DNA of 64,000 nt from assembly GCA_905250025.1 (NCBI GenBank), contig CAJNOJ010000002.1:1240001-1304000 (forward strand). The letters are read 5' to 3'. The stretch comes from Adineta ricciae. Taxonomy: Eukaryota > Rotifera > Eurotatoria > Adinetida > Adinetidae. The position numbers and the translations under genes are program-made. Below are positions 3,813 through 37,876 of this stretch, in pieces. Positions within the stretch are counted from its first letter, which is position 1; each line of letters begins with the position of its first letter. The notes under the pieces are model-generated. The model did no database searches. It was not told the DNA's origin and saw only the letters and a program-made list of their open reading frames with translations.

Positions 3813-4462
3813 AAAACTTTTTCTATCGTCAACAACGAATCAAACTCAACGACGTCCTATTACAATAACTTCAAATTACACTTCATTGTTTCTGTCGTTC
3901 TATGGATCTAATAATTTATCTAGAAAAGAAAAGAAGAAGAAGAAGAACAACATGAAGAAGTGATATTTAAAGAATGATATGTGTATGTGACTTTATTAAT
4001 AGGTAGAAAAGATAAGTATGATAGTGCGAAATGTGAATATCACGGTGTTTATATAGAATTGAAGGATGTACTTTTCAGAATATTGAAAAGAAAAGATAAA
4101 GATCCTTGATACTCGCATTTAGTTAGTTTACTATATGGTTTTAGCTTGTATCAGCGTGTATTAAAGTGAAGTTAGAGGAAGAATTAAAAACTTCGATTAT
4201 TATTCAACTTGTGCGTTACCATGAAGTTTTCAAAATGCATGTCATATGCGTCTCTCAGAAAGGTTCGAGTTGGATTTTAGAAGAGACAAAATACTGGATT
4301 ATTCGTTGTATTTTGTCACTTCTACACTAGTTGAATATGTTTGCGGTACATTGCAGTCAAAACCATGAATATCTATATCATACAATGGCAAATAAAAATG
4401 CCAAACATTATTTCTCTTTTGAATTTGTGTTTATGAAATTTTGAATCGAATTGTTGTTATCA

Positions 4463-10326: not shown

Positions 10327-10848
10327 TTAGTCCGATGTGTGACTTCTACATGAAAAATCGATTTGTTTCTTCCTACGCACAGAAATAGCAGGCATTTTTG
10401 CATACAACAGATCATTTGATGGACAAATATCAGAATGTGTTAACGTTGACATCTTTGGATATTCATCATTGTGTTGGTTTCTCGGTGTAAAATTGATCGG
10501 TTTCTTTACTTTGATAGACTAAAACGAAAAGAAAATGATGTTTTCATATAAGATAATGTCATAAGATTGATAGCATACTTTTGGGGTTAGTTTTGGAAAT
10601 GTGAATTGGTCGTCGCGTTTTGTATGATTTGATTCTAACATTGGTAGAAAAGATTTGACAGAACAATCAGTTTGTTTGTCTTGGCATTCGAAATCTGTAG
10701 TTGGAACAGGAAATATAGTGACAGTTTCCGAATGATTCCAACCTAGCTGGCGTTTTCGTAATATTTTTTGTTCGGTAAACTTGTTTTTGTACGAACATTT
10801 TTCTGCATCTTGTGAATAACTTCGTCGCATACTTCTGCTGTCTGCCAT
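10327..10848 (-). CDS. Unrecognised basic protein
   Basis: Two exons, 10848-10579 and 10518-10327, across a 60-nt intron with good GTATGC donor and TTTTAG acceptor; 153 residues, complete from ATG (MADSRSMRRSYSQD) to stop. The protein is rich in Lys, Ser and Thr, has no membrane segment or signal peptide, and contains many scattered short basic motifs (KILRKRQ, VRRKKQ). It looks largely disordered. No family is recognised. The clean splice and codon continuity over the intron are the main support for a real gene. Confidence 0.55.
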
Positions 10849-11250
10849 TGTAAAAAAATGAGAGTATAATATGCAACCTATCCGTGCTAATCAAATATGA
10901 ACGTGGTAATGAAGGAGAAAGAAACGTTTCAAACAGCATTCATTACACAGAAACTAGTAGTTCATTATTTTTATCTTTGCAAAACTACCGTTTGCTGAGT
11001 GCTGTTTGTTATCAATAATTTCTTTTGAGAGACTTGTCATGTTTTTTTTCCTCTGACAGATGAAACGTCAAGATCGTATGTACTTTTCTTCTCATATGAT
11101 ATATTTCCACTTATCAAACACGTTCATAAATAAACGATTTGACAAACAGCAAACCAGAAGAGAACACACATACACAAAAATAGAAAGATCAACTATAGCT
11201 AGGTCAATTGAACAAGCAACGGACGACGCAGAAAGATTTGTCTGATAGTT

Positions 11251-11930
11251 CTATTCTAAGTCTGGTTCAGTTATGATTGCACCGCCACCCATCGAGGAAC
11301 TATTCATGGTCTAAAACGAGAAAATGAGAAGTTTTGTTAAATTTTTTCATCATCTGGAAAGTTTACTTGAGCGATGCGAGGTAGGCGTATGATAATTTCC
11401 TGGAATAATTCAGGCGGTAATGTTTGCTGGAATAGGGCCATTAGATTTTGAGGTTGACTGCAAACAGCTACAGCTTTAGCTAAATGATCAACACCGTTGT
11501 TAAGATCGCCTAACAAACGAAGAGAATGAAACGGGTTTGAACAATAGAAGAAGGAATTCAACGTACCACGAGATAGACAATCTTCGCCTTGTTGGATTTG
11601 TTCAAGAAAATATCGACGCATTTCATCGGGATCACTGGTATTGACCTGAAATAAACTGTCAAAAAGTCCAAATCGAACTGATAAATATGATCTCTTACAT
11701 GACTTTGTGATATATCAACCGTTTGTTTCTGTTTTCTTCGTTCTAAAAGCAAATATTAGACATGTAGCAATGTTATATACATTCACTCGACACTGACTGG
11801 CTTTCAACTTTTCGGAAAAGTCAGGAGCATTTCGTCGTTTTCGATCAAAATACACACAATAACCAACGAAACTAACACCGAGTCCAACCGCTGCCACTAA
11901 TGGCCATAATGTTTTGCTGGTTGTGTTCAT
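11251..11930 (-). CDS. TOMM20: TOM20, mitochondrial import receptor subunit
   Basis: Exons 11930-11798, 11742-11699, 11645-11567, 11509-11367 and 11310-11251; 152 residues in frame. An N-terminal membrane anchor (about residues 8-28, ending YCVYFDRKRR as in animal TOM20) is followed by a basic linker, RRYFLEQIQQGEDCLSRGD, the TPR-like motif NNGVDHLAKAVAVCSQPQNL, and ALFQQTLPPELF. The C-terminus ends EPDLE, close to the acidic DDVE end of vertebrate TOM20. The protein sits in the outer mitochondrial membrane and binds presequences. Start: the ATG follows directly after a TATTTTCAG acceptor. Length and motif order match the family (about 145 residues). Confidence 0.93.
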
Positions 11931-12137
11931 CTGAAAATAACCACGTCATCGAATACATGTGGAAAGAAAGAATACACTGCATCACAATGGTTATGTCAAC
12001 ATTAGCTAAACACTACCTTTTATAACTCTTTTTCGTATAACTGAAATATACGAAAGTAGTTTCTGAAAAAGGATGGAATCTTTTTTCCGTTAAATACGTG
12101 AGGTTTGGTCATTATTTAGCCGTAAAGAATCAGCACG

Positions 12138-12407
12138 AATTTTGATGCTGCTGGTAAAACAACTATTCTAATGAAAATTAAATCAGATAAAGCTGCCGAA
12201 ACTACATCTGTACTAGGAGTGAATTTCACTGTATCTATCATCCCAAAACAAGGAAGAACACTGCGATATTATTCTTACAATTTGGATGGATTTCTGTTTG
12301 TTATTGATGTTGCAGATCATGATTGAATCAACGAGGCATGTGCTTATCTTCTTAGCATCATGCAACAACTATCGCCATTAATGGAGGAAAATACGAACAA
12401 AAACTGA
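12138..12407 (+). pseudogene. Decayed ARF-family GTPase fragment
   Basis: Reading from about 12141 gives [14 protein letters not shown], then LGVNFTV, DGFLFVIDVADHD, a TGA stop, and INEACAYLL. These align with the P-loop, switch and RDINEA-like regions of the ARF gene 800 nt downstream. It lacks introns, lacks the WDVGGQ switch 2 segment, has an in-frame stop and has no start region. It looks like a retrocopy or an old tandem duplicate in decay. It lies upstream of, and in the same direction as, the intact ARF gene. Confidence 0.7.
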
Positions 12408-12727
12408 TCAGAATTGAAATTTATTTTTTGAAATATTTCATGAAATTACGAAAAAATTAGCAAATTTCTTTTGATCTACTTCAATTATCTTCTCTTATCG
12501 GGCATTATACTTTAGCGTATTGCGCTATTTTTATGTTTTACCATATCTATTGCATGAAATCAGGTTAGATAAACTAGGGGCTAGCAAAATTTCTGAAATT
12601 ATTTTCATAAATCTTCATCGACTTTCTTTCTTTCTTTCGATTTGAAGGCATGGTTAATTTTTCTGATGTAAACAATCAAAAAACTTATGCAAACTAACTT
12701 CCTTGCCTAATTTCAACATAACATGAA

Positions 12728-12793
12728 TGAGTCACGTTGATGCGACACGTCGCCCAGGTGAAAGAGAAGAATAGTCAACAGCTGACTGAGTCA
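12728..12793 (+). promoter_or_regulatory. Paired TGAGTCA (AP-1/CREB-type) motifs upstream of ARF gene
   Basis: The exact heptamer TGAGTCA occurs at 12728-12734 and 12787-12793, 59 nt apart, followed by ACGT-core sequences to about 12850 and then the ARF start codon at 12940. bZIP factors bind such sites in animals. Function here is inference from the motif alone. Confidence 0.3.
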
Positions 12794-12939
12794 CTGCAAG
12801 ATTTGTTATTGCATGCGTACGGGTGTCGACGTGTCTCCTACGACGTGGCAATGCTGAAAATCTTTTTAAATATCGATCACTGACGACTTTTCTCATCAAA
12901 CATTTCTAAACCAACTCATACGACAACAGTCAACCAATC

Positions 12940-13688
12940 ATGGGTCTTTTCCTTAGTCGAATGTACGAAGTTCTCTCTTCATTCAGCAATGACAAACCAG
13001 CGCGACTTTTAATGCTCGGTCTTGATGCTGCTGGTAAAACGACAATTTTGTACAAACTCAAACTCGACGAAAATCTGCAAACCATTCCTACCATCGGTAA
13101 ATCTCTTATCATCAATAAGAACTTCCTTCTACCCTATTTTTTATCATAGGATTTAACGTTGAACAAATCAGTCCATGTCGTGGAGTATCATTTACTGTTT
13201 GGGATGTAAGTGTGACGAACTTTCGATTTCAAAGTCTTCTGACATGATTTCTCGTTTTGTTGAATAGGTTGGTGGTCAAGAAAAAATTCGTCGCCTCTGG
13301 CAGCATTACTATCAAAACTCAGATGGTTTAATCTTCGTTGTAGATAGTAGTGATGCGGAACGAATAAATGAAGCTCGTGAAGAACTTCATGGTATTCTCT
13401 CTTCTTCAGAAATGTCGACTGTACCTGTGGTTATCCTTGCTAACAAACAAGATTTACCAAGTATGTAGACAATTCTGGAGAAAATCTGAAAATTTCTATA
13501 AAAACATTTCTTGAATAGTGGCAATGAAACCTGCTGATATTGTTCAAAAACTCGATATGAATTCCCTACGTGGTAAACACAAATGGTTTATTCAAGCTGC
13601 GTGTGCAACAACCGGTGAGGGTTTGATCGAGGGAATGCTCGAAATGAGTAACCTCGTTAAACAACATCGTAAAGAAACTGGTTATTAA
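12940..13688 (+). CDS. ARF-family small GTPase
   Basis: Exons 12940-13096, 13150-13205, 13268-13460 and 13519-13688; 191 residues. Seen in order: MGLFLSRM with Gly2 for N-myristoylation, GLDAAGKTT (P-loop), PTIGFNVE (switch 1), [10 protein letters not shown] (switch 2), NKQDLP (guanine specificity) and CATTGEG. ARF proteins recruit coats and lipid enzymes to Golgi and endosomal membranes. It is about 10 residues longer than canonical ARF1 because of an inserted N-terminal segment and a longer tail ending KETGY, so it is a diverged ARF or an ARL rather than plain ARF1. All three introns are 53-62 nt with good consensus. The start is the only ATG giving Gly2. Confidence 0.9.
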
Positions 13689-14049
13689 TTGTGATAATAA
13701 ACGCAACCTGATTTCTCTCTCTCTCTTTCTCTTTGTACATCAATCATTTCGAATTTTCTAGTTCTTTTTCAAATAAAACAAAGACAAATTTTGTTTTTGT
13801 TATTTATAAATAGAATTTTTTTCGAAATCAAAAGTTGATTTTCCCTCACGAAAAGAAAAAAAGAAACCTACAATGAACAAGACAATTGTACAGAAAAGAA
13901 AAGCGAACTGTTAATAATCTATCCCCATAGCTGATACAAAATAAATGAGTGAATAGTTCAAGTGGTTGTGTGTGTGTGTGGTTTTTTTTTCTTCAGATAA
14001 ATCTATTTGACCAAGTCACAGTGAGTTTTGCAAGTAAAATTTCATCAGA

Positions 14050-15924
14050 TCAGTATAATTCATCATTATTATTTGCATTAAATCGTACAGGAAACATCAA
14101 TGCTTTGGCACTCATGAAACTTAAGTTAGGCAAAGTATCCATAATACGTTTGGCATCATCAGATATGATTGTAGTTGAACCGGGAAAGAGATCAACTGTT
14201 TTGATTGGTATCGCCGATTTGGCTTGTGGAATAATCGGACTGTCTGTTGCTTGACTGGACGATGGAGATGTGATGTGTTCCTCTTCGGTTGGTGATTTCA
14301 TCGTAGGAACGTAAAAATCCAGATCGAGTGTTTTGTTTGCATCGAAAACTTGAAGGAGAAGAGAAGAATTCATGTAAAACTTGACTAGTACAGGAGGATT
14401 ATTTAATTCATATTTGTTAGTAATTACATGCAAGAACATTCGATGTTTAGTTAATAGAGCAAATTATAACTGAAAATGAGCGACGTGCGATTTCATACTT
14501 ACCATTCTCCTCATTCTTACTGACGTTGGATGAAAGAGATGAGCTATCATTATCTATGGTTTTGGCAATAATTATTTATGGTTTTCGATAGTGGAGTAGT
14601 CAACTGCGAAAAAAGGCGGTTGAAAATTCTTACCTGTTAGAGGATTTTGTAGTCCACTTTGCTTCCAATCAAAATGCGGACGAATGGATTCAGTTGCCAG
14701 CTAACATAATCAAGAGAAATAATGGTTTGCTTGAAGAAGAAACGTATGTTCCTACTTTGTTTCCATTTTCAGTATCTTCAGAATCATTACTCACTGATAC
14801 GATAGATTTGACTTTTTCCGGCTGTAAAATTTCCGGTGTTAATGGAACATTTTTCGCCTATTTTTATGTAAAATAAGATCGGTGAATTGAAAGAAAAGAA
14901 ATAACATACGCGAAAGCGTTCATTAACACCCAATGCTTGATGAAACAAGCGTTCTGTATTCGATTTACGCCATTGAAATTGAATGCCAACTGGATCATTG
15001 GATAGATTTGATAAAACATTCCACAGCCTTTCAAAACATAATGAATATCAAAGTTACTTCTTGATCTGTGTGAAACACTTACGATAGACTAGATTGAAGA
15101 TATGCTAATTGTTTTGCTGGGTTTCGACAGGATGTAAAGGACGGTAAATCAGTAGAGGGAACAGCATAATTTTCATTCGCTATCGAAGGCGATGGTGGTT
15201 CCAAAGGAAAGCATGTTGATATTAAAGAATCGATTTGTTCAGAACTTAATGTATTCTAGGGATAATGAAGAAATTAGAACGATGGAGACAATAAAAGATG
15301 AAGTAAATAAACAGACTGTTGGAAGAGAAGATGCCTGAGGTTTGGGAGCCACTTGTACTTCACTAAATTCACCGAAATCATCATCATCTTCGTCTTCGAT
15401 CGGTTTAGTAGTTTGTTCATCACTAGATGATTGCACTACTTGTTCAGAAGATGGTACCGTAGTTGATTCAAAACTAGCCCAACCATTCTCGTCGTTCTCT
15501 GTAGTTGCATTGGATGTTGTTGCTGGAGCGGCCTGAAATCGTCATCGAATTAAACTTCAGATAAGAAAGACCAAAAAAGAGATCCTTTTTTTACCTCCAC
15601 AGTATCTTCTGCTTTCGTTTCAAATGCAGCAAAATTTGCCCAGTTATCATCGGTATTATTTTCTTCATGTGGATTTTCACCATTCATCGAGTTCTTTTCT
15701 ATCTCAGTCGACGGCACATCATCTTGAATTTGAGCAATATCAGTATCATTATTATCATCAACTGATTTCCATTCTTCGTTACTATCTTCTACTACATCCG
15801 GCAAAATTGGTGATATGATTTCGTTGGATTTTATTGTAGTAGTTGTATCATTTTCGTCGACATCATCGTCGAATGGTGGTGGTGATGTATCGTGCACAGG
15901 AGGTATGACAACCGACTGGCTCAT
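14050..15924 (-). CDS. AFTPH: Aftiphilin-like clathrin accessory protein
   Basis: Eight exons (15924-15595, 15532-15317, 15255-15083, 15027-14910, 14857-14795, 14700-14634, 14553-14503, 14348-14050) give 438 residues. Landmarks of aftiphilin: the N-terminal SPPPFDDD, acidic DDDDFGEFSEV and DNWANFAAF motifs (gamma-ear/clathrin binding), the WRKSNTERLFHQALGVN box, then HFDWKQSGLQNPLT, ANKTLDLDFY and LPNLSFMSAKALMFPV near the end. Aftiphilin works with AP-1 and clathrin on trans-Golgi and endosomal carriers. It is shorter than the vertebrate protein (about 930) through loss of disordered linkers. The ATG lies 5 nt after a TTTACAG acceptor and 181 nt after the SART1 stop. Confidence 0.88.
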
Positions 15925-16105: not shown

Positions 16106-19100
16106 TTATTTATATCCAGGAGGCAGTTGCGAATCTTTTGAACGATTTGCACTTAAAACAATGTAGGGCTGTTGTAATTGAATTTGTTTTTGTTTTAAGA
16201 GATTACAAGTTTGTAGTGGAGTGTCAACACTGGACATCTTTTTCATGGCCTGAAAAACAAGAATGTTGTTTAACTTTGCTTTGATTTCATGAAAAATAAC
16301 TTACATCTTCTTCAGCGTGTTTCTTCGCTCGTTTTTCTGTCTTCTTCTTACCACTACCTTTACCATGGAAACGATGTGAAAGTGCACGAAATGCTTCTTT
16401 GGCATTCATTTTTCGACCGCCTTCATCGACATATTCAAGTTTGACTTCAGGACGATAATGCTCTTTTTCTTTAAAGTCAGTCAAGGGTCCTGATGTATAC
16501 CGGTCACGTCGTGCATGTTTATCTTCAATTTCACTAGAAAATAATAAATTTTCGATCATCGAGAACGCACCTATAAATTGATTTCTACTTACTAGGAATT
16601 CTTCTCTTCAACTGTAAAATTTTTTGCTGAAATATCGCTGATAATACGAGCATTTTGCCGATTTTTGTCTTGTTCAATGTATCCTAGTGACAAAAAAAAG
16701 TCTAGGTACATTCCAAAAAAGTAGAGTAACCAACCTTTCTGTAATGCAAGTCTGAGTGCACTACCAATTCCACGATCCAATGATGTCTCTTCTGGTAAAA
16801 TCGATTCTTCTAGACGAAACGGTTTTGTATTAACATTGTCGGCCGGTGTATCGTCCATAGCGTCATCATCCATAGCATCATTTTCCAATGCATGCTGTAA
16901 TAATTCATCGTCGGGGTCTATTGCCGCATGAGGTTTTGAAGTCGACTTTTTACTGGATGAAACGTTAGTACGATTGATTTTTTTCGACTTCCGTAATGCT
17001 GGAATGCTTGCTAATGAATCAATAGTATTGCCACCAACATTACGACAAAATTCAGACATGGTGTCAAGGACGAGACTTTTATCATCGGGAGGTGTGGGAC
17101 CAGGTGGAAGAATAATACCGGTTTCCATCGGTTCAGATTTTATTTCAACTTTCAATTTTCGATCGCGTTCTTCGATCAATTCACTCAAGACCTAAATGAA
17201 TACAATTAACTTCTTTTATTGGAATAGACTATTTCATACCTTTTCAGCCGAACTACTTTCTTTTTTCGTTTTCAGTTTCATTGTTTTATTAACAACAGCC
17301 TGAAGCTCATCAAAAGCATCATCGGTAATGGCAATATTAGAAAGATCATCATCAGGGCCAACCAAATCGTCTAATAGATAGAAATATTTGTATTTTTCTT
17401 TCGTCGAAATCTTACTGTTTTGCTTACCATCATCTCTTTCAGTCGTCGTGATGATTTCTCGTTTAATTTTATTCAGAGAAGCACTAGCTGGACGTTCCCT
17501 ACAATAAAAGATCTTGCAACGCAAACTAAAACCTGTCGGGACATACTTTGATGATGATGAGATTGCTGTAGCACGGCGAGCGTCAGCCGGACGTAGTGAC
17601 ACTGATGCCGATGATTCATTTGGTTCACTACTATCCATGGCTAATAGGTCGTCAGCCTTGAGCATTTTTCGTGATCGAAGCTTTTTCTTAGTTACCTTTT
17701 TTGGCTTTTTGAATTGTTCCTAGAGAAGAAGATTTTCATAGATTTGACTCTCCTTGACAAGCAATTCAAGTATATTTACCATTTCAGCAGCGGTATAAAA
17801 GTCGCTCGCTACTTTTGGTGCTGCTGCAGTTAAACTCTGCATTCGTGCTCGAATTTCCTCTTTCATATTGTCCATGAATTTCTCATCAGCCATATCGTAT
17901 GTACCTCCGGTATCTAAACAATAACATCAAACTCTACTTCTGTCTTTCCAGATAGAATATCAAACGATTTACCTAATCGAAATGATGATTTCTTCTTATC
18001 ATCGTATTGTTCAAGCATTTTATTACGATTGAACTAAATTGAAAATGAAAATAAGTATTTTCCTCATTCGAAAATCCAACTTACCATTCCGAACTGATCC
18101 GGCGTGTCATCATCATCGTTATACGATCGATAACCAGGCGTTTTCTTTTTTGCTAATTCAACACGTTCTTTTGCCCGTTCATTGTCCGTAATATTAACAT
18201 TGATTAAAACATCTTCATCATCATCCTCATCGTCATCTTCACCTGCTTTTTTGTCGCTAAGAATTTCTAGAATACACAACAATTAATTCGTTCATACACA
18301 AGGTCTTTTTTTATCTACTTTTATCTTTCAATGTTAATATGACTTGTTGTCCTTCTTTGAATTCATCGATTGAATGTTCAATACGAAGACCAGTTAAATC
18401 CTTCGCTCCATATTTCTAGAACGAAAGCAGAATAAAGCGAATGTAAACTTAACGGAAGTGTCGATAGATCTTACTCTATGTTTTCGTTTCTCGGCTTCAT
18501 CACGCATGACATTTCCAACGCTGAATTCTTCATCCATTTGTTCAAGTTGTTTGGCCTTAGAAAAGTAAACAATCGACAAAGATTAATCATTCAACTCTTG
18601 AAAGATACATACGCGTGCAGCTGCTCTACGTTTTTCCTCCTCCATTTGTCGCATCTTTTCCACCCATGAGACAGCTGATTCGCTTGGCTCAGAAGCTATA
18701 GTTGGTGTGGTCCTGTATGAAAAGAAACGTTTCTAATGAATCTCCTTGCAACTTCAGATTCGAATACATACAAGAATTTTTCTTGCAATAATCGTTTTTC
18801 TTTTTGGACGCCAAGTTTTTCCAAGACTTGTTCGGTTCTCTTCTTTTCAGTAAGATTAGCTGCTGGTCGATGAACGAAATTTTCATCGCTATTTCCACTT
18901 TTCTTTGGCTCATTAGAATCTCCCGATGCACCAGCATCGACGGTTAATGGCTTAAGACCAAGAGAGGCCCGTAATTTGTTTGTTTCTTCTATGGAGAGCG
19001 ATGCACGTTCAGTTCCTTCGCGCTCATTGTCTGATGTATCATTCGCTTGCGATTTCGTTGGTGTCGCAGACCGAGATCGATCATCGTCGGATGGTGAACG

Positions 19101-19242
19101 TCGATCGCGTTTTCGTATTTTTTCCACACGATTGTGATCGCTACGATGTTTATCTAAATAGTGATTATTTGACTCAGAGTGGAACTCAATGCATCTACTT
19201 ACGTTTCTCCGAACTTTTCTCCTTTTTCGAATTCGAAACCAT
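16106..19242 (-). CDS. SART1: SART1/Snu66, U4/U6.U5 tri-snRNP protein
   Basis: Fifteen exons from 19242 to 16106 close in frame to 790 residues (human SART1 has 800). Landmarks: the RS/KD-rich N-terminus, [110 protein letters not shown], then [19 protein letters not shown] and [12 protein letters not shown], ending PPGYK. The protein bridges U4/U6 and U5 in the spliceosome before activation. Exon list: 19242-19203, 19153-18772, 18712-18613, 18555-18475, 18415-18319, 18266-18085, 18033-17973, 17913-17780, 17719-17547, 17498-17428, 17370-17240, 17191-16735, 16683-16593, 16533-16305, 16249-16106. Introns are 47-66 nt. Identification is firm. Confidence 0.95.
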
Positions 19243-21060
19243 AATCGACACTGACAATCTGTAATGAAATTCGTGTAACTTTCTTATTGCAAACTTAATT
19301 AAAACGTACTCGAAGAAATTTTATATTATCTTTCGCAAGTAGACGATCCAACCATAGCCACATACTCAAATCCGAGTTACCCTCTACGCGAATTATCGCT
19401 CATTATTCTTGACTTAACCGTTCTCCAACGACATCTACCGTGACTTCCCTATACCCATATATAAATATATTACTTATACTCCATTTTCAAATTAATCGCT
19501 AACAATTTAATAACATAAATGGAAGTTGTATCAACAATTCATATTCACAACATCTTGATAGCCTGTTGATCTTCTCATAATCATACACATATTATAATGG
19601 AACATATGTACTTCTGAGCAAAATTCATCATTCTCTCCAACCCACTACCATCTCAACTTAAACAATGATAACATTCGCATTCCATTAGAAATTAATTTCA
19701 TCGATATATTTTCGTGTGCAACATGCACTACTCCTTTTCACCGATGTATTTTTCATTTTCTAAAACAAGTTGCTCTGGCAGTTTCATGTTTCCACGAATC
19801 CGCAACTATTCGTCATCGCAACTAAGATTCCTCCGTTTGAAATATTTACCTCTTAGTAACTTGAAGTAAGTAAAATTTGGCTGACTCGAAATGCAAGACG
19901 TCCTATTCGTTCTTGCACATGAAGAATTGGATATATGTATGAAAATGAATTGTGTATAGACAAACTAGATTTCGTGCACTTTACGGTAATCGGACGTTGC
20001 TTATTACAACTTACCAAGAGGTAAAAATTCCAAAGCTGCGGAATTCTAGTTGCGATGACGAAAAGTTGCGGGTTCGTAGAAACACGGAACCGCCAGAGCA
20101 ACATTTGTTAAATTAATTTAAATTTGTCGGAAATGACTGGGTGATAAGAATCATGTAAATGTGGGAGCGCCTACTCTCGTGTGTTCAACGTAGACGTGTG
20201 ACGACAATATAGGTGAAATAGATATTAGAAATTGGGGAAACATGACGATGGTGTGTAGTTTAATCTGAACAAATTTTGTCATTCTCAAATGTTCGAACTG
20301 AGTATTTGAAGAGCATCGATATTGGAATAAACTTCCTTGAAATGAACTTTTGAGTGTAACCTGTATGAAAGATGAAAGGTTGATGTTGTTGGTTTATTGA
20401 CGTATACTCCTATTATTGACAATCTACCATTGCTGATTTTATTCCTACTCAACTGAATTTTATCTAAAATTCATCTACGCCATCGCATTCATAATGATGT
20501 TGAATTTTCAGAGTTGATAGAAGGAACCGTATGTTGTCTGAAGGTAGTATGTAATTTTAGGGTCTATATTGATAAGTGTTTTTTCCATCTACTATTAATT
20601 ATTTTCTAGTTTGTAAATATTTTAAGAGAATGCCAGTTTTTAAGCCGAACCAGCGTAGCGTATAGAGCACTTTCTAATAGGAGAACAAGTTAAAGTATAT
20701 GGAGAGAAAGAGAGAAGTATTCAAAAATATTTAATCGCAAAGTTCCGCACTATATTCTCACAATCCTAAAAGAGCACATACATTTGTAAACTTCCACTCT
20801 TTTTTTTTATATCGTGACAAAGCTGAACTATAGATACGCTATTTTGGAGGTGTTGAAGTAAAAGGTATTTGAAACCTAACCTACCTTTAGTATACCACTG
20901 GCTTCTGGTCTCATGAACGACTAATAAAAATGGTTCTATCACTTATATCTTAACTTAACATATACACTTTGTCTGCATTTGAAACTGAATGTAGGCTGTA
21001 TCTCTTTTTTGCAGATATTCACTTTCAAATCTGACCTCTCTTGCACTAAATCGAAGAACC
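19243..21060. other. Gene-poor region
   Basis: About 1.8 kb of AT-rich DNA between SART1 and the prohormone gene. It contains the foldback element listed separately at 19769-20102. No coding exon or structured RNA gene is supported. Confidence 0.5.
19769..20102. repeat. Imperfect long inverted repeat (foldback/MITE-like)
   Basis: Left arm 19769-19861 starts GTTGCTCTGGCAGTTTCATG. Right arm 20009-20102 ends CGCCAGAGCAAC. The reverse complement of one arm matches the other over about 90 nt with scattered mismatches (shared blocks include CTCTGGC/GCCAGAG, GTCATCGCAACTA/TAGTTGCGATGAC and TTACCTCTTAGTAA-like sequence). The loop is about 147 nt. Weaker symmetry continues outward. No transposase is present, so this is either a non-autonomous element or a transcribed hairpin. 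Confidence 0.65.
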
Positions 21061-21401
21061 ATGCAGTGCTTCATTATTCTATCCATCCTGTTTGGTAAGT
21101 TTCTTTACTTTATTGGTAACGATTAGTGAAATTCGTATGTTTAGTGGTATTTGCTGTCAAAATGAGTTATGCCGTACCGATAGTTTCTGATACGTTTGAT
21201 GAATTAAATACACTTGGTGATGAACCAAATCTGACTAAAAGAAAACTGCCAGTTGAAGGCATACTAATCGGTCGACGATCGTTTCCAGCCGAAGGTATCC
21301 TAATTGGAAGACGCAATTATCTAGCCGAACGTAACCTAAGCGGAAAACATCGTTATCCAACAGAAGGCATTCTGATTGGTAAACGCAGTTCGCGCTTTTA
21401 A
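21061..21401 (+). CDS. Neuropeptide prohormone with repeated EGILI-amide peptides
   Basis: Exons 21061-21094 and 21145-21401; 96 residues. Signal peptide MQCFIILSILFVVFAV, then an acidic spacer ending NLTKR. After it come dibasic-flanked repeats, each with a C-terminal Gly amidation donor: KLPVEGILIG-RR, SFPAEGILIG-RR, NYLAERNLSG-KH, RYPTEGILIG-KR, and a tail SSRF. Prohormone convertase and carboxypeptidase cutting, then amidation, would give three peptides ending EGILI-amide. The third repeat is degenerate. Known: this layout is the standard animal neuropeptide precursor. I do not recognise the EGILI-amide family. AATAAA follows at about 21562. Coding by layout is strong; receptor and role are unknown. 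Confidence 0.88.
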
Positions 21402-21886
21402 CTATGAACTTCAGTGATCATCACAACTGTTGAAAAAACAATGACTCGATGTAACCGGATAATTGGGATGTCATCATAAAATGTTGTTGTGTTCTTTTTT
21501 CTATCATTCGTGAATAATCTTCTGTTGAAAACTATTATGAGTGGTCAGTAAGAACCAAATAATAAAGATAAATTTCATTGACGTCTTAGCAAAGTTTTAC
21601 TCATACACTCAAGGAGCAATTAAAAAACCATCACTTTATCGTATATGTATATAAGCCAAAGTGGCAATTCTCAATAGATTAGTGTATAACTTTTGTTTTC
21701 ATTGATTTCGAATAAAATAATCAAACGATATTGAATCGAGTAAGGAGAAGAGAACATTTGTTTTTTTTTTACAAAAGAAGTAGATAATAAACAAACAGAT
21801 AGAAACTGAAAAAAGAGAAGTAGCATGATTATACGCGAACAGATATACCGCTGATTGAAAATTTATCATTGCTTTCATCGCTAACT
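21402..21886. other. Intergenic gap
   Basis: Convergent 3' flanks of the prohormone gene and VPS4 copy A. A polyadenylation-like AATAAA lies near 21562. No other feature is seen. Confidence 0.45.
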
Positions 21887-23770
21887 TTAAGAGCCTTCTT
21901 GACCGAATTCTTGTGTGAACTTTTGCTGCAGTTTTAAATCATCTTCGCCTACTGTTGGCTTTTGCGTAGCAAGTGCTGCTGCCATATCACTCTACATAGA
22001 TACAAACAATCAGTGTTTATTATAATTTATTAGAAGAGATCTTTTATAATGACTAACCATAGATACAGGAGGTTCGCATAGTTCTTCTGATGAAATTTCG
22101 TCTAATGTTTTTCCTACAGCACCTTGATCACCCGGTGAACAAGCTAGCCAAAGCAATCGAGGTCCGTCAGGTTTCGGATTAGGTACCTTTATAAAGAATA
22201 AATATCGTGCTAGAAAACCAATGTCATTAAGGAGCAAAATAACATACTTGTTTGAAATGGGTGGCACTGCCTAGACGTCGTATAGGTCTTAGTAACGCTT
22301 CACGACAAACAACTGCTATATCAGCACCAGAATAGCTATGCACACAAGTACAATATACTCCTCCACTTCTTACATATACCATGTTTTACTTACTGCTCAG
22401 CACGTTGTGCTAACTGCATCCATTCGTGTTCCTTGATGGTATGATATGTATTGACGCCTAAGTGTGTTTTGAACATGGCAGCACGTTCATTGACTCCAGG
22501 AAGTGGAATATAGATTCTCTTCTCAAAACTAGAACAACAACAACACATCCAACGTCTATCTTACAAATGTATCAGAACATACCGTCGTCGAATAGCTGTA
22601 TCTAACGCCCAGGGAATGTTAGTAGCAGCAAGAACAAGAACGCCAGAATTATCCGTTCCCACGCCTGAAAACAAACATGCTTGTGTCCGTATTTGTATAT
22701 ATCACCATGGGGAAAGTAGCATACCTTGCATTTGTACAAGAAATTCAGTTTTAACGCGTCTTGACGATTCGGATTCAGTGTCGTTACGTTGTCCACAAAG
22801 TGCATCGATTTCATCGATGAATACAATACATGGTTGTCGTTCGCGAGCTAGTTCAAACAAACATTTCACACCCTTTTCACTTTCTCCTAGCCACTTCGAG
22901 AGAAGATCAGATGAGCTGACTGAGATAAAAGTGCTTTTGCATTCGGTAGCAATTGCTTTAGCGAGATAGGACTTTCCAGTACCAGGCGGCTGAAAGCGAA
23001 GAGATAAAATGAGGAAGGACCGGAATAAATGATTACCTACTCCGTATAGTAAAATACCAGCCCACGGCTTGCGTTTTCCTGCAGAAATGTCATCATATAC
23101 TATAATCAAAACTCTTCTGTGAATTGCTCACCTTGAAAAAGTTGAGGAAATTTAACTGGTAAGATAACAGCTTCTTTCAATGCTTCTTTTGCTTGTTCTA
23201 ATCCAACGACATCAGCAAAAGTAACGTTAGGATCGGTAACAATAGCTCCTGAAAATATCAACCAACGCTAGTATATGGATAATCATTATCTTTATTAGCC
23301 TATACCTTCGAACTTTTGCATCATGCGTCTTCTATCTGGATCTGCATTGTCATCATCATCACCTTTGTTGTCTTTCGAATTTCCGCGTCCGTTAGATGTA
23401 TCAGCAACAGCTTTCTTTTTCGTCGGGCCTTTCTTTAGAATTTCTTTGATTTCTTCTGCTCGCTTTACATAACTTTCTATTTTAGCCAGAATTGTTTGTT
23501 TCATCTGTGCGTTCATCGATCCATCTAAAATAGATTTCCAAAGATCATTAATCAGCCTTCGTCTCCATCTACTAACATTTTCTTGCTTGCATAAGCCATT
23601 CTGCTGCTGTCATATAATGTTTTGCCGCAGCTTCATAATTATGTGCCTTATCTTCCTCTGTCGCTTGCTCAGCACTTCGAATACCTTTCTGAGAAAACAC
23701 GCCGTATGCAGAAACTTCCAGATGACGATTAAACTCTTACTTGAATATAATCACTTTGACCACTACTCAT
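21887..23770 (-). CDS. VPS4: VPS4 AAA ATPase, copy A
   Basis: Eleven exons (23770-23741, 23688-23577, 23524-23306, 23248-23132, 23078-23041, 22989-22725, 22664-22583, 22528-22394, 22335-22248, 22186-22058, 21991-21887) give 439 residues, the VPS4 length. An N-terminal MIT domain ([20 protein letters not shown]) is followed by Walker [14 protein letters not shown], Walker [17 protein letters not shown], sensor [10 protein letters not shown], arginine fingers [13 protein letters not shown] and the C-terminal helix ending FGQEGS. VPS4 disassembles ESCRT-III on endosomes and at abscission. Intron positions match copy B exactly, and parts of the two copies are nearly identical, introns included. 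All catalytic motifs are intact. Confidence 0.94.
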
Positions 23771-24657
23771 TGTTTTAATAATTTTATGATAAGATTTGAG
23801 AGTTGTTAAAAAAATATTCAATAAATATAACTGAGGCTACACACAGTCGGAGAAAGATAAATTCATATCTGAAATGGAAGAAATGAGTAATCGACAGAAT
23901 TACTTCATCATTTGAAATATTGACTAAACTCAACAGGAGAAAATATGAAACGTTGTTTATCCTTTCGAATACACATGACATGAATGATCGTGATCGAGTC
24001 GAATTGAATTGAGTGTGGGATAAGGCATGAGTCATCATAATCTCGAATAAAAATGAATGAATGAATGAATTCTGTTTGTCTGACAACGATAGTCGAATAG
24101 AAAAATTTCCAAGTTAATCAAATGATTATGATCATTCACACACGAAATGATTCGAAAAATAATAAATACAACAAAATTTTCAAAACTACTTTGTTATCAT
24201 TTCGAATTTTCTCTTTGCCGTTCTTATCGTTCCATTACAATATTTATTAATCATTCCTTCAGATGGCAGGAGTTGCTGTAGAAAAACAAAGCGACTGACG
24301 CCATAGAACAACAATGATTTGTGTTCATCTAGGTTTCTTTGTTTATTCATCTGTTATTTGCGGAACAGAAACTCGAGAATAAAAGTTGAAAATCTCTATT
24401 AGCAAGACCTTTTCAAAGCTTTTCTATTAAAACAATCAAAGGAAGACTATACCGATCAATTGAAACTAATCAATATCACGAATTTGTACAGAGCGTTGTA
24501 GGACCGTAGTATTTTCGTTTATTATCAAACTTGAAAGTCTTTTGTATCATAAAAGTCATAAACGCGTATGTACATAACTTCGGAAAAAATAGTTCATAAA
24601 ACCGCCGGGATTCATATTAGCAAGTGACATGAATAATTTGGACAGAGTTTTATTTTT
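23771..24657. other. Spacer between tandem VPS4 genes
   Basis: AT-rich spacer of about 890 nt. Includes a short (GAAT)n run near 24053-24069. No gene is visible. It must contain the promoter of copy A and the 3' flank of copy B. Confidence 0.45.
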
Positions 24658-26547
24658 TTATGAACCGCCTTGGCCGAACTTTTCAGTAAATGCGTCATAC
24701 TTCTTTAGCTCTTCTACGCATACTGTCCCTTTTTGTGTTTCAACAGCAGCTAACATGTCAGTCTACAAAAATCGATGGATGTTATTATAAATTTCTACAA
24801 GTAAACATTTCCTCTGCTACAACTTACCATCGTTACTGGTGGTTCACCTATTTCATCTGGATCTATATTGTCTAATGTCAGCGATTTCGCACTTGCATCT
24901 CCTGGTGAGCAAGGAAACCAGAGATGAGTAGGTTCATTGGGATCAACATTCGGATTTGGCATCTACGAGAAAAATATTTCAAAATCGAAAGTTTTTTCTT
25001 ATTGATACGAACTTGTTTAAAATGAGTTGCATCGCTGAGTCGTCGTATAGGTCTTAGTAACGCTTCACGACAAACAACTGCTATATCAGCACCAGAGTAG
25101 CTATGCACACAAGTACAATATACTCCTCCACTTCTTACATATACCATGTTTTACTTACTGCTCAGCACGTTGTGCTAACTGCATCCATTCGTGTTCCTTG
25201 ATGGTATGATATGTGTTGACGCCTAAGTGTGTTTTGAACATGGCAGCACGTTCATTGACTCCAGGAAGTGGAATATAGATTCTCTTCTCAAAACTAAAAC
25301 AACGATAAAACATCCGACACTTATCTTGTAACGATATTCCTAAGCATCAGAGAGTACCGTCTTCGCATGCCTTGATCAAGTTCCCAAGGCATGTTAGTTG
25401 CACCAAGAAAAAGCACACCAGAATTGTCACTTGCAACACCTAACAATAAATACATGTAAATAACAAGAACGAATGCCGACGGCGATCTATATGATTTGAA
25501 TTCAAAGGAAGGTCGAACATACCGTCCATTTGTACGAGGAATTCGTTTTTCACGCGTCGTGCTGATTCTGACTCATTTTCATTGCGTTGTCCACAGAGTG
25601 CATCAACTTCATCGATGAATACAACGCATGGTTTCCGTTCGCGAGCGAGCTCGAATAGGCATGTAACAGCCTTTTCACTGTCGCCGAGCCATCTCGAGAG
25701 AAGATTAGACGAAGTGACTGAGATAAAAGTGCTTTTGCATTCGGTAGCAATTGCTTTAGCGAGATAGGACTTTCCAGTACCAGGAGGCTGAAAGAGAAGA
25801 GATAAAATGACGAGAAATAGAATCGATGGTGGCTTACTCCATAGAGCAGAATACCGATAAATGGTTTACGTTGTCCTAAAATATAGAATCACACTTTATT
25901 GCATGTTTATTATTCACTAAAGACATGAATCTACCTTTAAATAGTTTTGGAAGTTTGATCGGTAAGATAACAGCTTCTCTCAGTGCTCGTTTTGCTTGAT
26001 CCAAACCAACGACATTAGCAAATGAAACTTGTGGATTATCAACGATCGATTCTAAAATTTCAATAAAGTCATTGTTACCTATATCTAACAAATAGACGTA
26101 ATGGAACTGACGTTCTAGTCGTTGCATAGTGCGCTTTTTATCTGGATCTATGACGCCACCATCATTGCCTTGAGCAGCATCCGAAACAGCAACTGCTTGT
26201 TTCGACGGTTGCTTATTCCTGATCTCTTCTGCTCTTTTCAAATATGTATCGACTTTTGTTCGTATGGTTGTCTTCGTTGCATCATTCATAGCTCCATCTA
26301 GTAATGGAAATGCATTGACCAGTTTGAATATAGACCTACAATACTTACATTTCATTGCGTGCATGAAATAATTACTTGCATCCATGTAAAGTCCTGCAGC
26401 CGTTTCGTAATCACGTTGTCTGTCTGCTTCCGTAGCTCGTTCAGCAAGTTGTTTACCTTTCTGGTAAATAAATAACATTAGGTATACTGGTCAACGATAA
26501 TAATAGTTAAAATTTACCTCTATGGCATCCATGTAATTTAGAGTCAT
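24658..26547 (-). CDS. VPS4: VPS4 AAA ATPase, copy B
   Basis: Eleven exons (26547-26518, 26460-26349, 26297-26112, 26051-25935, 25875-25838, 25787-25523, 25439-25358, 25293-25159, 25100-25013, 24962-24828, 24762-24658) give 430 residues. MIT domain [20 protein letters not shown], Walker [14 protein letters not shown], Walker [31 protein letters not shown] and a C-terminus ending FGQGGS. All catalytic residues are kept, so it should be an active paralog of copy A. MIT domain, linker and C-terminal domain have diverged more than the ATPase core, which hints at different ESCRT-III partners (inference). Same strand as copy A, 887 nt apart. Confidence 0.93.
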
Positions 26548-28812: not shown

Positions 28813-31156
28813 ATGATCAAAGGTCGTTTAGGACGATATTTAATCATATTTGCTGGATTGTATTTTACATGTGTTTTCGTCTTTTTCCGTTCGTTTACTT
28901 CTGACAAATCTGATATTGTTTCAACATCACCACGAATTCAAGCACATCTCGTCAACGATGACGCTGAACTACAGAAGGACATTCCACATCATATAGCTGT
29001 TCGACAGATCGACAGGGATCAGAATTCCAAACAGATTTCAAAAGTGAAAAAAAGGAAAAATGTTCGTTCGAAACTGGAACCATTTATGACGAAAGGTGTG
29101 TTAGGAAATTATGAAGAACAAGATGTTCGTCGAGTTACAGGTCCTGGTGAAGGAGGTGAAGGAGTGGTTTTGCAAGGAGAAGATGTTAAACTCGGTGAAC
29201 AATCCGTTGCAGAATATGGCTTCAATGAAGTTGCAAGTGATAAAATCTCATTGGATCGTCGTGCACGTGACACAAGGTGCGATGATTGAAGAGGAAATTT
29301 TCAAAAAGATAAATTCTATTGTATATTGTTTAGGCCAGCTGGATGTAAATATTGGAATTATCCAAGCGTTGAGAAACTACCGACTGCATCAGTTATTCTG
29401 GTGTTTCATAATGAAGGATGGTCAACGTTAGTCCGAACGATTCATTCTGTGATCAATACAAGTCCAAAAGAATTGTTAAAAGATGTTATTCTTGTTGATG
29501 ATTACAGTGATCAGGAGCATATCACTGTTCGTTTACCAGAATATATCAAACGATGGAATGGTCTTGTTAAATATACTCGGACTGAAAAACGGTATGTTCA
29601 CTTTTCAAAAAACGAGAGTTGCTGATCGAGATGAACTTTTCTAGTGTTGGACTTGTCGAAGCTCGTGTGATCGGTGCTCGAATTTGTGAAGGTGATGTTA
29701 TTGTCATTTTAGATGCTCATTGCGAATGCGTAAGAACAATATATGTTGTTTTATTATCACCACATTCTTTTTCACTAGGTAACTAATTGGCTACCACCAT
29801 TATTGACTCGAATCGCACTGAATCAACGAACTTTAGCTGTGCCGATTGTCGATGGCATTGAATGGAATACGCTTCGACATAATACCGCGTATGGCGGAAC
29901 ACTTTATCGAGGCATCTGGGAATGGGGATTTTTATATAAAGAATCTGAATTATCACAACGGGAAAGAAATTTAATGAAACATCCAACTGAACCATATAAG
30001 AGTCCAACTGTAAGATAAGAATGCAATCATTTTGACGTTAATAACGAGAAATTTCTTGTTTACAGCATGCTGGCGGTCTACTTGCGATTGATAAGAAATG
30101 GTTCTTCCAATTGGGTGGTTACGATCCAGATATTAAAATTTGGTAAATATTTTAAGAATTTACCTTTGACGTTCTGAAATATAACACTTCTTTTTTCTCT
30201 TGCAGGGGAGGTATGAATTTCGCTTCTGTTGCTCATCTTTTACCTATAATAGCATTAATTATTAGGCGAACAGTATGAATTGAGCTTTAAGGTTTGGATG
30301 TGTGGAGGTCAGATCGAATGGTAAATGAAAACAAACAAGCTTTCGCTCATCAAAGTCTCTTTGTTCTGTATTCAGGGTTAGCTGCAGTCATGTTGGACAC
30401 ATCTATCGAGGCCCTCGTCGGCGCGCTATGCAACCTCGAGACGGAAATCCTCAACAAAGTCATATCAATCATCTTCGTGTTGCTGAGGTATTCACCAGAA
30501 TCTGCTCGTATAAACAAGTCTGTTCATCTCATCGTAGGTATGGATGGACGAATATAAAGAATATTACTTACGACGAAATCCGCATCATGCCCGTTTGGAC
30601 ATCGGTGATACGAGTGCTTATAAAGCGATACGCCAAAGTTTGAATTGTTCGAGTTTTAAATGGTTTTTGGATGAAGTTGCTTATGAAATGGAAGCAAAAT
30701 ATCCGTTGCCTCCAGCAAATCTGGTTTGGGGTGAGATGCGCAATGAAAATTATTCTCAAACATGCGCTGATGTATACGACAATAAGTATGGTCGACCAAT
30801 TGGTGTGTCCGGCTGTCACCATCAAGGTGGTAATCAATTGTTTCGTCTAAATGTTGAAGGTGAATGGTCAGTAGGTGAACATTGTTTTGTATCCGAAGGC
30901 ACAACCGTTGTTGCAAAGTAAAACATAACGTTATCTCATATCATATTTACTTTTTTGTCTTTCTACCAGACATTGTGTACAAATGGGCCAATGGATACCG
31001 AAAGGTGAATGGACGTACGACAGTCAAATACGACAAATTCGCTCAAAGAAAGTTGATAAATGTGTTTCAACGAATGGCCAACGATTATTTTTAGAGATTT
31101 GTGATGAGAATTCAGCAGCTCAGAAATGGGTGTGGAGTGAAATTTATCTGAGCTGA
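28813..31156 (+). CDS. GALNT: Polypeptide N-acetylgalactosaminyltransferase (GALNT), type II Golgi enzyme
   Basis: Ten exons (28813-29276, 29334-29591, 29645-29729, 29779-30009, 30066-30142, 30206-30210, 30266-30320, 30376-30487, 30538-30917, 30970-31156) give 617 residues. A short cytosolic tail and signal anchor (about residues 8-27) lead to a stem. The catalytic domain has [17 protein letters not shown], the metal-binding DxH (ILDAHCEC), [31 protein letters not shown] and [11 protein letters not shown]-terminal beta-trefoil lectin domain of the ricin-B fold follows (C...[21 protein letters not shown]). It transfers GalNAc to Ser/Thr to start mucin-type O-glycans in the Golgi. Odd: the WGGE motif is completed by a 5-nt exon. 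Isoform number cannot be assigned. Confidence 0.93.
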
Positions 31157-37000: not shown

Positions 37001-37536
37001 TCACGATGGTGAATGATTTAATCGATCAGTACACAGTTTTTCGATGTCATCAAGACTTAAATGATCAATTGTATTCTTCATTTCCTAGAAAAAGAAGCAA
37101 AGATCGACGAGTACTAACGAGTTTGTTCGTACTTTTTGAAATGCATTGACGAATGCTTCACGTTCTTGGGGATTCTGAAGCCATTTTGAAGCTAATTGTT
37201 GAAGTTCACACAAAAATGCATTATTAATTGGTTTGCTCGATACTGGCGTCGTAGGCGACGAAGAAATCAAATGTAATTTTGTTCCATCAACAATATGACA
37301 ATCTTCTAATGTGCCTTCGTGTAAAGGTTTTCCTTTGTGAACTAATTTTTGCTGATGAATTGGAATATTCAATTGAGTGAAAAGACGAGATTTGATTTCT
37401 TGTATGGTATCATTTGGGGAAACCTATGAGTATAATCAATAAGTGATAAAAAGCAGAAAGTGATCGAGGGACAACTTACTTGTAATTGAATTTCAGCTAA
37501 GGCCGGATTGTTCAGTACTTTGACATGAATTAACAT
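37001..37536 (-). CDS. UBL4A: UBL4A/Get5, ubiquitin-like subunit of the BAG6 tail-anchor pathway
   Basis: Exons 37536-37480, 37423-37133 and 37084-37001; 143 residues. The N-terminal ubiquitin-like domain (MLIHVKVLNNPALAEIQLQV, QQKLVHKGKPLHEGTLED, GTKLHLI) lacks a C-terminal Gly-Gly, so it is not processed for conjugation. A middle linker and the C-terminal Tugs-type helix (TIDHLSLDDIEKLCTDRL) match UBL4A, which docks on BAG6 and passes tail-anchored proteins to TRC40. Human UBL4A has 157 residues. The ATG directly follows a CATTTCTAG acceptor. It sits between KCNQ and MAPKAPK on the same strand. Confidence 0.85.
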
Positions 37537-37876
37537 CTAGAAATGAGCGCAGAGGCACATAGATACAAATGTTTATTTCGTTTTTTTTTCTTTTTCTACT
37601 AAGATATATATTTATGTTCAATCAAATATTTACCTCTAAAATATAGAAATATATATAGAGCAAAAAGTTGAATGAATCGACAAAGACGTGAACACATATT
37701 TGTTTAGAACAGATACAAATTTGTTGATCAAATGGAGATAGAGAGAAAGAAAAATACAAGGGTTCAATATACATCTCCATTATGAAGATGATCACACGAT
37801 ACTAATGATAATGAAGACAGCAAATGATTCCATATGGTAAATATAAAAAAGATTAGAGAGAAAAAATGTTTGTGTT

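Follow-up and report, generated by a model that had tools for sequence, protein, structure and literature searches.

A candidate family of four multicopy amidated neuropeptide precursors with the motif PxE[GAS][IV][LM][LI]-amide in the bdelloid rotifer Adineta ricciae

According to the available part of PMC8557429 (2021), earlier work on the rotifer genus Rotaria found very few proneuropeptides, and an in-depth survey of gnathiferans is the next frontier. The closest described systems are the FCAPs of molluscs, in which several short peptides lie between basic cleavage sites in one precursor, and the "FCAP-related" repeats already reported from bdelloids. The molluscan peptides end in HG[YF] or GL[IV] (PMC5996578) or in HGGW/HGGGW (PMC8735849). 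The precursors from three Rotaria species are described, in the accessible part of the source, as carrying a peptide of 11 residues repeated 8 or 9 times (PMC6425005, 2019). Other rotifer systems include the EP/CCHamide orthologues (PMC6617912) and the APGWamide/AKH precursor of Brachionus (PMC10730642), and as far as the available portions of these two papers describe them, neither resembles the peptides reported here.

The locus described here lies in a 64,000-nucleotide stretch of Adineta ricciae DNA (the window), which is part of contig C2 in a genome of 130.46 Mb and 1033 contigs. The gene most probably encodes a secreted prohormone, likely a neuropeptide precursor, and is one of four genes found in the genome that share a PxE[GAS][IV][LM][LI]-amide motif and an intron that interrupts the signal-peptide coding region in phase 1; a probability of about 0.85 is assigned to this reading. 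The gene and the family are judged to be real, and the family is probably a new neuropeptide family with an ordinary architecture.

The gene is on the forward strand. Exon 1 (21061..21094, 34 nt, ending in phase 1) carries the start codon and the beginning of the signal peptide (MQCFIILSILF plus one nucleotide), and is followed by a 50-bp phase-1 GT-AG intron (21095..21144, GTAAGT...TTTAG). Exon 2 (21145..21401) encodes the rest of the signal peptide, a spacer, four 12-residue units and SSRF, and ends in TAA. The two exons splice to exactly 96 residues, the length of the complete precursor proposed by a first-pass annotation of this DNA, in the order MQCFIILSILFVVFAVKMSYAVPIVSDTFDELNTLGDEPNLTKR, four units and SSRF. 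The signal peptide extends to about position 21173, with a cleavage site set by eye. The N-termini of all four precursors are hydrophobic, as expected of signal peptides, with a best 11-residue Kyte-Doolittle mean of 3.37 for the window gene and 2.98, 2.48, and 2.40 for the paralogues. The first candidate poly(A) signal, AATAAA at 21561..21566 (forward strand), is a consensus match about 160 nt past the stop codon. TATA-like boxes (three of the four genes) and 3' splice-like sites are found upstream of the start codons, but their positions vary from gene to gene and they are not taken as evidence of a promoter.

Units 1, 2, and 4 of the precursor carry EGILIG[KR]R, which bears out the three amidation-ready EGILI copies of the first-pass annotation. 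Unit 1 (KLPVEGILIGRR, 21243..21278) and unit 2 (SFPAEGILIGRR, 21279..21314) are predicted to yield KLPVEGILI-amide and SFPAEGILI-amide, and unit 4 (RYPTEGILIGKR, 21351..21386) is predicted to yield (R)YPTEGILI-amide. Unit 4 is preceded by ...GKHR rather than by a dibasic pair, so that the peptide may start as RYPTEGILI or as YPTEGILI, and the sequence alone is compatible with either. The repeat previously called degenerate is unit 3 (NYLAERNLSGKH, 21315..21350), which keeps its length, the Glu and the Gly but no longer has the Pro, the dibasic site or most of GILI. The codons for EGILIG in the three good units differ only at synonymous positions, which is the outcome expected from selection on the peptide. 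When the codons of exon 2 were shuffled, not a single EGILIG[KR]R appeared in 20,000 shuffles, and none of a further 20,000 gave two identical 5-mers followed by Gly and [KR]R.

Stronger evidence against chance than these shuffles comes from three other genomic loci with a matching exon structure and motif. A protein query built from the repeat region found them on contigs C160, C20, and C39, with E values of 1.1e-14, 4.0e-8, and 8.7e-7 among the best candidates scored. Two queries built from the paralogues recovered the same four loci and, again among the best candidates scored, no credible fifth. A candidate on C7 (E 0.004 with one query and 1.63 with another) is an out-of-frame reading of a coding repeat rich in Gly, Pro, and Gln, and the minus-strand matches on C20, C39, and C160 come from reading the peptide repeats themselves in antisense. 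The C160 precursor has 165 residues and seven units of the form [DE]YP[MT]EGI[LM]LG[KR]R. The C20 precursor is 162 residues long and contains seven x[LI]PxE[AG][VI]LLG units after an atypical first unit ending in GIMLGKR; its eight Gly-ending units are spaced by 12 residues in the regular part, and seven are followed by KR or RR and the last by Lys and the stop codon. The C39 precursor is 118 residues long; its first unit is atypical and ends in SLLLGKR, three units read RLPSESILLGKR, and an RLPDEAVLLG adjoins the stop codon. The last units, which end in Gly-Lys-stop in C20 and Gly-stop in C39, could still be amidated. In each of the four genes a single phase-1 intron splits the signal-peptide coding part, with lengths of 50 bp in the window gene, 55 bp in C160, 120 bp in C20, and 47 bp in C39.

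The family motif, taken over 21 units from the four genes, is PxE[GAS][IV][LM][LI]-Gly. These units were selected by Pro3 and Glu5, so the invariance of both residues is a product of the selection rule; the set excludes the window gene's decayed unit 3, as well as the atypical unit that opens the array in C20 and in C39. Gly10 is invariant (21/21), and [KR]R follows it in 19 units, the remaining two ending at a stop codon. Position 6 is G in 11 units, A in 7, and S in 3; position 7 is I in 16 and V in 5; position 8 is L in 18 and M in 3; and position 9 is L in 18 and I in 3. The combination of a repeated peptide, a Gly amide donor and dibasic flanks is that of an amidated multicopy neuropeptide precursor. 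The peptides end in EGI[LM]L in C160, in E[AG][VI]LL in C20, and in ESILL or EAVLL in C39. EGILI is special to the window gene, and the earlier family name, EGILI-amide, is too narrow. The peptide core is conserved beyond its DNA: pN/pS, calculated without the visibly variable columns 1, 2, and 4 and therefore biased low, is 0.071 within C2, 0.140 within C160, 0.150 within C20, and 0.126 within C39. Between genes the core ratio is 0.182 for C2 and C160, 0.175 for C20 and C39, and 0.25–0.32 across the pairs. Near-saturated pS is a caveat on all of these ratios, as is repeat turnover by duplication or conversion, which means that the units of one gene are not independent. Two regular-expression matches were taken out of the unit set for this calculation: a chance match in the spacer (residue 27 of the window precursor) and unit 3, which is decayed. 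The expression does not capture the atypical opening units of C20 and C39. The earlier reading of a prohormone thus gains from the gene structure, the three paralogues and a conservation that is centered on the amidated core. The repeat had also been proposed as something to seek in relatives; the search covered this genome, where the three paralogues carry the family form of it.

The motif bears on whether these genes are the bdelloid representative of a spiralian family that already has a name, with the FCAP-related repeats of Rotaria as the foremost candidate; this reading is considered unlikely. The C20 precursor, with its eight regularly spaced Gly-ending units, is comparable in layout to the Rotaria precursors, and the stated repeat length of 11 residues in the available text does not fit the nine-residue amides predicted here (PMC6425005). 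The E[GAS][IV][LM][LI] ending differs from all of the printed molluscan FCAP endings, and a C-terminus of HG plus an aromatic residue or of GL[IV] occurs in none of the 21 units (PMC5996578, PMC8735849). Genome queries made from scallop FCAP-1 and FCAP-2 peptides, run without a positive control, gave one false match in one case and nothing in the other; the false match, on C19 (E 0.34), is a repeat rich in Pro, Gly, and Met. A diverged LASGLVamide-type peptide is a far more remote prospect. LASGLVamides are also amidated and end in two aliphatic residues, and the Pro of MMDPLASGLVamide stands at position -7, as it does in RLPSESILL-amide, but the Gly at -3 of LA[SN]GL[VI] is replaced by Ile or Val in 21/21 units and the Ala at -5 by Glu in 21/21, the Glu being part of the selection rule. 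The LA[SN]GL[VI]-amide core is found in 0/21 units, and a genome query with LASGLV-type peptides, also without a positive control, found nothing.

The surroundings of the genes suggest how the family arose. For C2 and C160, collinearity extends to either side of the peptide gene. Upstream, they match over genes at 11364-15025 of the window, which by our reading would include a TOM20-like and an ARF-like gene, and the peptide repeats match next. Downstream, the matches cover a VPS4-like pair (21886-26490) and the stretches 29201-31089 and 37014-37578. C20 and C39 are collinear downstream only (10507-15465 of the C20 stretch), through a protein-kinase exon; their upstream match of eight short rows, none above 24.9 bits and out of register, is not convincing. 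When 20-kb stretches of C160, C20, and C39 were compared with the first 52 kb of the window, only the peptide repeats matched across the two pairs at E 1e-4. Two collinear pairs that share only the peptide repeats are what would be expected if the gene had first duplicated and the whole genome had done so later, and a genome duplication is cited for bdelloids in the available part of PMC5818035. The four genes may accordingly be viewed as two pairs from an older duplication, with the members of each pair derived from the bdelloid genome duplication.

Several other features were observed in the same region. The VPS4-like genes are two in tandem on the minus strand, with a Pfam AAA match in the first and a MIT match in the second; the C160 region also has two matches to this pair, and the tandem may predate the split of C2 and C160. 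A SART1-like gene (SART-1 and HIND profiles) lies on the minus strand at 16592-19283, in the gap that separates the peptide gene from the collinear block upstream of it. The corresponding interval in C160 is about 2.7 kb long compared with about 6 kb in the window, and the SART1-like gene, a spliced-leader-like pair, or both may be missing there.

This pair, some 1 kb upstream of the peptide gene, consists of two spliced-leader RNA-like copies arranged head to head. The plus-strand copy (19998-20112) is a member of a repeated element of about 110 bp; it starts with TGCTTATTACAACTTACCAAGAG followed by GTA and has a full leader and a GT donor. The leader of the minus-strand copy (19764-19870) is diverged. 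The first bases, TGCTTATTACAACTTACCAAGAG, presumably correspond to the bdelloid spliced leader. The element has at least 40 matches in the genome (40 of 49 candidates scored), and the leader is identical in all ten inspected loci from other contigs (C43, C146, C8, and C6). Among the 40 matches listed there are 13 divergent pairs 127-131 bp apart (C2, C6, C8, C43, C77, and C99) and three wider ones (C79 and C146). Rfam gave nothing for the spliced-leader-like copy beyond a sub-threshold U3 match. According to the available text of PMC1925144, bdelloids share a 23-nt leader derived from SL RNAs of about 100 nt and have introns of about 60 nt, and the monogonont Brachionus showed no spliced leader. 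Together with the paired loci, the leader-like element is indicative of a bdelloid genome.

The number of units differs within each pair. Of the four units of the window gene three are good and one is dead, compared with seven intact units in C160, and C39 has fewer units than C20 and, by eye, one more decayed twelve-residue unit in register past its stop codon (3989-4053 of the stretch read). The dead and decayed units suggest that in each pair one of the two genes is losing units. The window copy may itself be decaying, which counts against the main reading of a neuropeptide precursor. That it is a decaying duplicate, with the paralogues performing its function, is a lesser possibility, although not a negligible one, and is compatible with the main reading. 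The synonymous-only differences among the three EGILIG blocks and the intact reading frame and splice sites of the window gene argue against it. A bolder history, to which roughly even odds are given, is that of an undescribed PxE[GAS][IV][LM][LI]-amide family with two subfamilies (EGILL/EGILI and EAVLL/ESILL) that separated in an old duplication, the bdelloid genome duplication later turning each of them into a pair; one copy per pair would then have lost units and drifted, and the four peptide sets may now act on different receptors.

The simplest and standard route for such precursors would lead from the secreted prohormone to short amidated peptides. The signal peptide would be removed, a convertase would cut at KR or RR, a carboxypeptidase would trim the basic residues, and the exposed Gly would be converted to an amide by a peptidylglycine monooxygenase. 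The products would be the nine-residue amides KLPVEGILI-amide, SFPAEGILI-amide, and (R)YPTEGILI-amide, with computed [M+H]+ values for predicted amidated peptides of, for example, 980.650 and 945.540, and the released peptides would most likely serve as neuropeptides that act through a peptide receptor. That the gene is expressed, that its product is processed, amidated and released from neurons, and that a receptor exists are all predictions, and every step after translation is deduced from the precursor. Candidates for the enzymes are present in the genome. P-domain exons of the proprotein-convertase type gave 13 matches, of which one locus was read, and 1 of 14 control genomes also matched. 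Copper monooxygenase (Cu2_monooxygen) exons gave at least 24 matches listed in the genome and matched in 0 of 14 controls; seven loci were inspected (C18, C61, C4, C448, C359, C94, and C48). PHM-like exons are found among the weaker of these matches. The exons at C94:257500-260500, judged by eye on the motifs HHILLYGC and KYLVLQVHY, are presumably like the PHM half of PAM, and C98 has a second match of the same profile span. The best match, on C18, looks DBH-type rather than PAM, and C61 was not recognized as PAM on reading. Copper monooxygenase exons of the DBH/PHM type look numerous in this genome (C18, C61, C152, C448, and others).

The peptides could also be secreted products of another kind, for example antimicrobial or structural, because what points to neurons is the layout of the precursor. 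This seems improbable. Antimicrobial peptides of the contrasted kind are cationic, and the C160 peptides are acidic (DYPTEGILL and EYPMEGIML), which argues against such a role, as does the amide-donor Gly kept in 21/21 units. For the favored reading, a neuropeptide precursor, the four-gene family with its clear motif provides exact queries for a neuropeptide survey of gnathiferans and concrete synthetic peptides for receptor screening, and the paired genes provide a case for following the decay or divergence of peptide genes after duplication. Its value is that of a query set and a test case; the architecture is ordinary and holds no conceptual surprise.

Database comparisons agree with a new family. 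The window, C160, and C20 precursors were scanned, and none has a match above the cut-off in Pfam or to any NCBIfam family (0 families). The window precursor lacks even a sub-threshold Pfam match; a Pro-MCH match of C160 (E 0.028, 14.9 bits, cut-off 24) and a PG_1098_N match of C20 (E 0.058, 13.3 bits, cut-off 23.6) were taken as chance. The same applies to the PDB matches of the C20 precursor, the sole one compared, to an endonuclease and ribosomal protein L1 (E 0.13, 0.59, and 0.66). Searches of prokaryote and viral collections with one peptide pattern each matched 8 and 12 stretches and confirmed 0, a result that is expected and carries little weight. No family bearing this motif turned up in full-text searches of the literature, a weak negative since whole-word searches for short strings miss longer printed peptides. 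The suggestion of a possible new family in the first-pass annotation is upheld as far as these comparisons reach, the literature negatives being weak. A match to a named family, which would have spoken against it, was sought in part: the units depart from the molluscan FCAP, LASGLVamide, buccalin, and SALMFamide motifs, and the Rotaria FCAP-related repeats, compared through their description in the available part of PMC6425005, are the lead by which the family could yet prove to be a named one.

Among other known systems, peptides of the EFLGamide/TRH type have a Glu followed by hydrophobic residues before the amidation site, as is found here. The present family differs in having no E-F-L, and its spacing is E-x-[IV]-[LM]-[LI]. 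The L-type-like sea cucumber peptide MGFTGNTGILLamide, from a SALMFamide precursor, shares a GILL-amide end with three of the C160 unit types, such as EYPTEGILL-amide, but as described in the available part of PMC3594158 it is a single 11-residue copy beside LxF-amides in an echinoderm and has no P-x-E, and the overlap is read as a probable four-residue coincidence. The LxF-amide end of the SALMFamides, as given in the same part of PMC3594158, is absent from units whose last residue is L or I in 21/21 cases. Allatostatin A and buccalin are likewise multicopy Leu-amides; their molluscan form is GxL-amide (PMC5996578), whereas in the present family the Gly, where present, stands at -4 and position -3 is Ile or Val in 21/21 units.
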